Below are positions 3,261 to 49,970 of a stretch of 64,000 nt of DNA, in pieces. The position numbers and the translations under genes are program-made. The notes beneath the pieces are model-generated. The model was not told the origin of the DNA. It worked only from the letters and a program-made list of their open reading frames with translations, and ran no database searches. Origin of the DNA: Gemmatimonadota bacterium (lineage in GTDB: Bacteria > Gemmatimonadota > Gemmatimonadetes > Longimicrobiales > Gaopeijiaceae); assembly GCA_016209885.1 (NCBI GenBank), contig JACQVF010000105.1:1-64000 (forward strand), given 5' to 3'. Numbering within the stretch: the first letter of the stretch is position 1; each line of letters opens with the position of its first letter.

Positions 3261-3578
3261 CCAGGTCGCTGAAGAACTACAGCGGGTCGCGTTGCGAGCG
3301 CCGTGGGGGCAGCGGCAAGGCGGCGCGACGCGGGGTCCCCACGCAAACGCACGTTTGCGTGGGGAGAGGGCGCCGGCGATGCCAGCCTGCATCGTCAAGG
3401 AGCGCCAACGCAGCCCATGCCCCCACGCCGCCGCAACCCGAAGGGCGCTTGGGGGTTGCGCACCCGATCCTGCGTCGCTCGTCGTCGCCGATGGCTCCGA
3501 CATCGACTCCTCCTCGCTCCTGGTCTCCGGTGCGCCAGCCCCAAGCGCGCGACCCACTGTAGTTCTTGAGCGACCTGC
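3261..3578. mobile_element. MITE-like element, family A, full-length copy
   Basis: A non-coding stretch of 318 bp bounded by imperfect inverted repeats of about 31 bp (3261-3291 and 3548-3578, about three mismatches), with ends reading CAGGTCGCT. Inside is a perfect 13-bp hairpin (3337-3349 and 3352-3364, loop CA) around GTCCCCACGCAAACG. A shortened copy lies at about 36125-36246 and remnants lie at 7849-7985. No transposase gene is inside. It fills most of the 428-bp gap between pyrR and the next gene. The rest (3579-3673) holds only the degenerate GCGGGCGA repeats. Confidence 0.8.
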
Positions 3579-45363: not shown

Positions 45364-46046
45364 GGGGCCACCTGCGCAAGGGCATACACAAAGAGGTTGA
45401 TCCCCATTCGAATCGCCTGCTCGCGAATGTGCGGCGGATCCCCGTGCACCTCCGGATCCTCCCAGCCATCGCCCAGATCCGACTCGTAGCTGTAAAAGAG
45501 GATCATGCGACCGGAATGGAAAACCGCGAACCCCTGAGGCGGCTTCCCGTCGTGTTCGTGGATCTTCGGGAGTCCGTCCGCGAACGGATAAAAGACTCTG
45601 TAGACGGCGTGATCCGCGGGCAACTCCACCAGCTCCTTGTCCGGAAAGAGGAGCCGCACCTCACGCCGGAGGCTCTCGTTCATCCCGTAGTTATCGTCCG
45701 CGTGCAGGAACCCGCCGCCCAGGAGGTACTCGCGCAGCGCCCGCCGCTCCTCCGGCGTGAAGCTCACGTTCCCGTGCCCCGTCATGTAGATGTAGGGATA
45801 ATCCCGGAGCGCCGGGTCCAGCGGCGTCACCACGGCCTCAGCCCGCGCGACCGCTAGCCCGGTGCGCTCCGCGATCGCCGCGAGCAAGTTCGGTAGCGAA
45901 GAAGGATTCGCGTACCAGTCGCCGCCGCCGCCGTAGTGCAGCCGCCCGATCGTGAGGAGCGTATCCTCCGGCGGAACAGGCGGCGGCATCGAGCCGGCCG
46001 CCAGCGGCGCGGCTACCAGCACCAGGGAGATGAGCGCACACGGCAT
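45360..46046 (-). CDS. DUF4159 domain protein
   Basis: Exported protein of 228 residues with a signal peptide (MPCALISLVLVAAPLAAG) and a DUF4159 body: YPYIYMTGHGNVSFTPEER, LREYLLGGGFLHADDNYG, ELPADHAVYRVFYPF. The fold is GATase-like and probably binds other envelope proteins; no catalytic role is known to me. The ATG at 46044-46046 lies 4 bp from an inverted-repeat element (46051-46255), so its ribosome-binding region and any promoter must come from the element. The frame also runs open through the element, but that part is repeat DNA. Confidence 0.88.
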   Translation of the reverse strand: MPCALISLVLVAAPLAAGSMPPPVPPEDTLLTIGRLHYGGGGDWYANPSSLPNLLAAIAERTGLAVARAEAVVTPLDPALRDYPYIYMTGHGNVSFTPEERRALREYLLGGGFLHADDNYGMNESLRREVRLLFPDKELVELPADHAVYRVFYPFADGLPKIHEHDGKPPQGFAVFHSGRMILFYSYESDLGDGWEDPEVHGDPPHIREQAIRMGINLFVYALAQVAP

Positions 46047-46050
46047 CGTG

Positions 46051-46255
46051 CTAGTGTCCCGTCCCCGAAATTCCTTGGCATTCGACCGCCGCTGCATTCC
46101 GCATCGCTCGGTTGCTCCCCCTCGAAATAGCGGTGCTATTCCTTCGTCGCCCTCACCCCACGCAACCTTCGTTGCGTGGGGACCCCGGTCGCGCCTTGCG
46201 CTGCGGGCGCATCGGCGCCCTCGGCGCACAAGGAACTTCTGGGACGGGACACTAG
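46051..46255. mobile_element. MITE-like element, family B, copy 1
   Basis: A 205-bp element with 27-bp terminal inverted repeats (46051-46077 and 46229-46255, two mismatches) beginning CTAGTGTCCCGTCCC. A perfect 11-bp hairpin (46156-46166 with 46171-46181) carries the GTCCCCACGCAAC core. No coding capacity for a transposase. The outer CTAG could be a target duplication, or TA as in IS630-derived elements. It supplies the rsmI stop codon at one end and the upstream region of the DUF4159 gene at the other. Confidence 0.85.
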
Positions 46256-49277: not shown

Positions 49278-49817
49278 TCACGGAACCCGCGGGTTCAGGA
49301 TCCGCTCGACGTCGACCAGCTCGACGAGCCAGGCGCCTTTGCGGGTGCGCACCACGGTGAACGGGATCGAAGCCTCTCGCGCGCCCATGCGCACGCGCAC
49401 CATAACCTCGACCGCCTCGCTCGTGCGGCCGGGCACGCCCAGTTCGCTCTCCACGCTGTAGTCATCATGGCGCAGGATGTTCGCCAGCAGGTCCATCCGC
49501 TTCTCCACCTCATCCCGCGGGTAGAGCTCCAGGATGGCGCCCTCGCGAGTGCCGAACAGGCGTGCCATGACCTCGAGGGCGCCCCTCATGCCCTCGGGAC
49601 TTGCGCCCCGCCTGCTCCGCAACTGCGCGGCGGCGTTCGCCGCATGCAGGAATCGCTCGACCACGAGCGCCGGGGCAACCTCGCCGGCTCCGGCGCGCTC
49701 GCCTCCGGAGCTCGCCGTGCGGCTCACGCAGGCGGCGACTGCCGTGATGGAAAGCAGGATCGCTAATGTCCCGTCCCGGACATTCCTTGGCGTTCGCTTC
49801 GCCGCTGCATCGCGCAT
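49278..49817 (-). CDS. Lipoprotein whose start lies inside an inverted-repeat element
   Basis: The 179-residue product from ATG 49815-49817 has a signal peptide of lipoprotein type (RDGTLAILLSITAVAAC, lipobox AVAAC). The mature body resembles NTF2-like or DUF4878-type lipoproteins (VVERFLHAANAAAQLR, SIPFTVVRTRKGAWLVELVDV). The first 15 or so codons, the start and a GAGGAGGAG about 12 bp upstream all lie in element copy 2 (49763-49970). No ATG, GTG or TTG exists between the element edge and the signal peptide. The native start was probably replaced when the element inserted. Function unknown. Confidence 0.7.
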   Translation of the reverse strand: MRDAAAKRTPRNVRDGTLAILLSITAVAACVSRTASSGGERAGAGEVAPALVVERFLHAANAAAQLRSRRGASPEGMRGALEVMARLFGTREGAILELYPRDEVEKRMDLLANILRHDDYSVESELGVPGRTSEAVEVMVRVRMGAREASIPFTVVRTRKGAWLVELVDVERILNPRVP

Positions 49818-49970
49818 CGCTCTGCGTTGCTCCTCCTCGAAATAGCGCTGCTGCTCCTTCGTCGTCCTCACCCCACGCAACATTCGTTGCGTGGGGACCC
49901 GGGTGGCGCCTTGCGCTGCGGGCGCATCGGCGCCGTCGCTGCACAAGAAACTTCTGGGACGGGACACGAG
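49763..49970. mobile_element. MITE-like element, family B, copy 2
   Basis: A 208-bp element in the same orientation as copy 1 and closely similar along its length (about 85-90% by eye). The ends are at 49763-49789 and 49944-49970, with the GTGTCCCGTCCC-type repeat. A perfect 11-bp hairpin (49871-49881 with 49886-49896) carries the same core. The CTAG seen at both ends of copy 1 is CTAA at one end and CGAG at the other here, so any target duplication has decayed. Confidence 0.85.

Follow-up and report, generated by a model that had tools for sequence, protein, structure and literature searches.

A probable IS630-derived MITE at the CTAG of the rsmI stop codon in a Gemmatimonadota genome

Between rsmI and a DUF4159 gene of the Gemmatimonadota bacterium GCA_016209885.1 lies a repeat of 205 bp, non-coding and without a transposase, which is very probably a non-autonomous MITE of the IS630 family that was moved in trans into the CTAG at the end of rsmI, with CTAG being rebuilt on both sides. 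In our best judgement the insertion was a tolerated event that gave an abutting gene pair a structured spacer, and its effect on DUF4159 expression would presumably be neutral or mild. The element family is already known, and the placement can be explained by the IS630 transposition rule. The stretch of DNA analysed, referred to as the window, is 64,000 nucleotides long and corresponds to positions 1-64,000 of contig JACQVF010000105.1. A preliminary description of this DNA had proposed that a non-coding mobile element separates the two genes and that the ends of its inverted repeat coincide with gene ends. Both observations hold, as the repeat is inverted, multicopy and devoid of a transposase, the rsmI TAG is part of the right arm and the DUF4159 ATG is found 4 bases past the left arm. 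The features are listed in Table 1.

Table 1. Coordinates of the element and of neighbouring features in the window
Feature	Position	Strand	Remarks
MITE, IS630 family (very probable), counted with flanking CTAG bases	46051..46255	no strand	inverted repeat, multicopy, ends of complete IS630 elements
Transposed DNA proper	46054-46252		
Left arm of the terminal inverted repeat, including flanking CTA	46051..46077	+	CTAGTGTCCCGTCCCCGAAATTCCTTG
Right arm of the terminal inverted repeat, including flanking CTA	46229..46255	-	minus-strand sequence CTAGTGTCCCGTCCCAGAAGTTCCTTG
TA target duplication, left copy	46052..46053		both junctions read CTAG, as they do in most copies
TA target duplication, right copy	46253..46254		first two bases of the rsmI stop codon; its third base, G, is element base 46252
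Nested hairpin module of about 42 nt	46146..46187		core CACCCCACGCAACCTTCGTTGCGTGGGG at 46154-46181; borders approximate
17-codon open frame	46051..46104	-	MRNAAAVECQGISGTGH and stop; outward end of the element; ends 4 nt upstream of the DUF4159 ATG
rsmI, 16S rRNA (cytidine(1402)-2'-O)-methyltransferase, TIGR00096	46252..47100	-	stop TAG 46254-46252 inside the right arm
DUF4159 gene, PF13709	45360..46046	-	ATG at 46046, 4 nt beyond the left arm
Second element copy	49763..49970	+	88% identical; not at a gene stop; one of the five further copies

The two terminal arms, of 27 nt each, are 93% complementary and enclose 151 nt. Folded as single-stranded DNA, the element gave a z of -9.8 against shuffled sequence, and none of the shuffles folded as well. 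It is short, non-coding and multicopy, has terminal inverted repeats whose ends are those of autonomous IS630 elements, and is flanked by a TA target duplication, all of which characterize IS630-derived MITEs. IS630 itself reportedly prefers the TA within 5'-CTAG-3', according to the title of a 1991 paper by Tenzen and Ohtsubo that is listed in PMC2170065.

The search for other copies with the same ends that the preliminary description had suggested returned five near-full-length copies in the same genome, 88-94% identical to the window element, as well as many partial ones; for this genome the analysis drew on searches and on the stretches surrounding copies. The element is not a chance structure, since it occurs in multiple copies in the genome, including one more in the window. 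A point against the proposed origin is that several of the older copies no longer have CTAG at one of their ends. An exact 18-mer of the right terminal repeat was found in 102 other stretches among 84,980 genomes searched, and the record titles for this 18-base end pattern include Gemmatimonadota, Acidobacteriota, Deltaproteobacteria, Eisenbacteria, Aquisalimonas, Cyanobium and others. Within the same order, 9 of 154 genomes contain the exact element end. Copies from other genera have a 163-bp backbone in common with the window element, and the 42 extra nucleotides of the latter correspond to the nested hairpin module. This module is without counterpart in the 163-bp relatives and is found inside other repeat families of the genome. 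Delimited by CACCCCACGCAAC and GTTGCGTGGGG, it occurs in the window at 46146-46187, 49861-49903 and about 3322-3375; elements of several distinct MITE families contain it, and it is also seen by itself, which would suit an independently mobile module.

Complete elements with the same ends encode a transposase. In Azohydromonas australica (locus L168) these ends enclose 1165 bp bearing a 363-amino-acid transposase that matches IS630 (NF033545, 257 bits for a cut-off of 100; PF13358). A second complete element of 1165 bp is present in an Acidiferrales MAG (L159), and a third, of 1175 bp, in a genome of the same family, G030 (L332), which also carries MITE-type copies. All three combine the left end of the window element with an IS630 transposase. 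The transposases of L168 and L159 end in ISGTGH, followed by a stop codon made by the junction TAG, and the window element has kept the codons GISGTGH and stop at its left end, read outward. Since the transposase stop arises where element and target meet, the reading frame is closed only with the help of the insertion site; the genes concerned lie at L168:2020-3111 and L159:6444-7608. Against the proposed origin, no complete transposase with the ends of the window element was found in the own assembly, which is 93.6% complete. IS630 transposase is represented in this assembly (G000) by just two pieces, L136 (G000:C44) and L137 (G000:C36), one of which has a CTAG-type end of a different sequence (CTAGTGTACTGACGC); the transposase of the window family is therefore missing or unassembled. 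The window element was presumably mobilised in trans. The region G000:C53:60152-62069, considered as a 1.9-kb parent on the basis of paired end matches, turned out to be an RNase E/G-like gene with a different element on each side, and is not a transposon.

Members of the IS630 family use TA as their target and duplicate it upon insertion (PMC2170065). Among the element ends from other genomes, 92 of 105 read CTAG. The deviations seen at the junctions of complete pairs (GTAG/CTAG, TTAG/CTAG and CTAG/CTAT) are changes of the outer base, and therefore fit a duplication of TA with G and C being internal to the element, rather than a 4-bp duplication. Because the element starts with G and ends with C, and TA is duplicated, CTAG is rebuilt at both junctions. 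An empty site is available for a sister copy in genome G081 (L252): the corresponding sequence of its relative G080 is 92% identical, gap-free across the join and contains a single CTAG, and the gene beside the insertion ends at the same CTAG with the element (G081) and without it (G080). For the copies L250 and L265, the sequences compared as candidate empty sites come from relatives of only about 70-72% identity and carry no information about the join. The L250 copy (G078:C4:64361) is a sister MITE lying between an outer-membrane-protein-like gene, which ends at CTAG, and the ATG of the next gene, an arrangement identical to that of rsmI and DUF4159.

At the rsmI locus itself, comparison with other genera indicates that the gene pair is ancestral and that the element is the newcomer, since rsmI is directly followed by DUF4159 in 20 of 29 rsmI loci of other genera, several of them with overlapping or nearly overlapping ends. 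In-silico removal of the element together with one TA left the last residues of rsmI and its TAG unchanged, with the DUF4159 ATG 4 bases further on. As the genus is represented by a single genome in the collection, we infer that the empty site reads GGTCTAGCACGATG, with 4 bp between the rsmI stop and the DUF4159 start. The rsmI stop was almost certainly regenerated by the insertion rather than newly supplied, the TAG having been present beforehand, because its TA is the duplicated target and the terminal base of the element replaces an identical target base. The earlier proposal that the element supplies this stop is thus not sustained, its TA being duplicated target sequence and the empty L252 site of G080 having the same CTAG stop. 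The kind of counter-evidence that the preliminary description had named, a relative with the same bases and no element, is thus seen at the L252 locus and bears on rsmI by analogy. The other counter-evidence it had named, an absence of further copies in the genome, is contradicted by the copies found.

According to the IS630 transposition rule, an IS630-type transposase acting in trans would insert copies at CTAG and duplicate the central TA. The target would have been the CTAG made by the end of rsmI itself (GTC TAG), and the insertion would have produced the arrangement C-TA-[G...C]-TA-G, in which CTAG is restored at each end. In such a scenario rsmI would retain its TAG, the DUF4159 ATG would still lie 4 bp from a CTAG, and the abutting gene pair would be split by a structured spacer of roughly 200 bp. 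The insertion would have been tolerated because both reading frames are unchanged.

The same position can be read in regulatory terms, the element acting as a co-opted unit that provides rsmI with its stop and DUF4159 with a promoter or a ribosome-binding site, thereby uncoupling DUF4159 from rsmI. Its position between the two genes agrees with such a role, and the 5' leader of DUF4159 now consists of element sequence. The 17-codon frame, which has a GAGGGGGAG stretch 10 nt upstream and ends 4 nt before the ATG, makes translational coupling through the element conceivable, its translation being a conjecture. The final codons of this frame correspond to the C-terminal end of IS630 transposases from elements that share these ends. 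Against a regulatory role, the frame is not a conserved feature, because it is shifted in copy C35. Moreover, the rsmI stop was regenerated, other copies of the element lie in unrelated contexts, many of them not before a gene, and neither a sigma-70-like promoter nor an intrinsic terminator was found in the element (0 terminator-like sites, searched as a GC stem followed by a T run). We consider such co-option improbable. With respect to the signals that the preliminary description had placed in the element, the promoter part found no counterpart, and the ribosome-binding site persists as a weak sequence possibility.

The strong folding, in a genome that also carries REP-like short palindromes, might point to a REP/BIME-type palindrome or an RNA regulatory element instead of an IS-derived MITE. 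REP and BIME sequences are, however, short palindromes that lack both the terminal repeats of insertion sequences and a duplicated target, whereas the window element has terminal repeats in common with complete IS630 elements, a TA duplication, full-length copies at unrelated sites and, for the sister copy, an empty site. It has the features neither of a Rho-independent terminator nor of a known structured RNA, with no Rfam match at E<=1. Such an origin is therefore highly improbable, and the IS630-derived MITE is by far the preferred reading.

How general the coincidence with stop codons is was evaluated by counting insertions, on simple gene calls and a small sample. Insertions lie at gene stops for 13 of 31 complete pairs in other genomes and for about 14 of 31 in the own genome, the latter by a hand tally over three element families; the corresponding background of CTAG sites at gene stops is 19/138 and 14/59. 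Pooled, a gene stop is the location of 27 of 62 insertions and of 33 of 197 other CTAG sites (p = 5e-5). When only CTAG outside coding sequence is considered, no significant excess remains (27/55 against 33/93, p = 0.12). CTAG is rare, with 19 occurrences in the window versus 176 expected from base composition and 46 from a Markov model. The targeting of CTAG and selection against insertion in genes thus largely explain the coincidence: MITEs come to lie exactly at stop codons because CTAG is rare, a good share of the non-genic sites are stops, and insertion rebuilds them. That the elements of this clade are, beyond CTAG targeting, retained at or directed to stop codons, through selection for 3' hairpins or target choice, would agree with the pooled excess and the similar shares elsewhere and here, but the comparison with non-coding CTAG and the small sample of simple gene calls speak against it, and we regard it as rather unlikely.

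On a more tentative note, for a CTAG-targeting IS630 clade and its MITEs in several phyla, stop codons might constitute a safe landing site at which MITEs pile up as 3' hairpin spacers able to alter operon coupling. If so, the terminal G would let the TA duplication rebuild CTAG, so that the TAG stop survives on either strand. We found no literature on stop-codon regeneration by IS630 elements or MITEs, and a 2024 review of prokaryotic MITEs contains neither 'stop codon' nor 'IS630' nor 'CTAG'. Apart from this conjecture, a known transposition rule accounts for a striking coincidence of gene boundaries and offers a simple, testable reason for the placement of such MITEs at stop codons in many bacteria; annotators should seek further evidence before calling such ends evolved regulatory parts.

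The terminal repeats, the TA duplication and the CTAG target are those of the IS630 family (Tc1/mariner superfamily), whose complete elements with these ends encode an IS630 transposase, whereas the window element has only 205 bp and no transposase. Among known MITEs, the 107-bp RUP of Streptococcus pneumoniae, thought to be moved by IS630-Spn1, is likewise a non-coding IS630-type MITE with a TA target and repeats in common with an IS630 element; it differs in sequence and host, and the passages on RUP in this source do not mention placement at stop codons (PMC2229807). MITEPsy1 of Pseudomonas syringae is also a small MITE with a CTAG target, being 100 bp long and inserting after CTAG or YTAA, but a 4-nt duplication is reported for it and it is a relative of the IS5-family ISPsy2, not of IS630 (PMC3189936). 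Correia elements, or NEMIS, resemble the window element as MITEs near genes that form long RNA hairpins; the relevant passages of the sources describe promoter and RNase III roles for them (PMC2229807, PMC4853749), in contrast to the window element, in which no promoter was found.

At least two more repeat families of the own genome have CTAG at their ends; they begin with CTAGTGCTCCCGGCCGG and CTAGTACTCGTGAACAG, and several of their copies likewise lie at stop codons. The second family (CTAGTGCTCCCGGCCGGAAATACGGT..., 168-184 bp) is represented by L061:2888-3071 (G000:C53:61887-62070), L020, L112 and L114; its copies are nearly identical, hence recent, and are found at a number of contig ends as well as at the stop codons of an RNase E/G-like gene and of other genes. 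A third family, with ends CTAGTACTCGTGAACAGAAATACGGTG, is also found at a stop codon (L123, G000:C48:30816-30984). In addition, a REP-like short palindrome (TAGCAGGTCGCTGAAG / TAGCAGGTCGCTGAAGAACTACAGCGACCTGCTA) is present at loci L271-L299, for example at G000:C71:10475. Its 14-nt core occurs in 29 exact copies, and in 95 with up to one mismatch, compared with 9 for a reversed control. Some of these palindromes adjoin MITE copies, and some have a stop TAG at their start.
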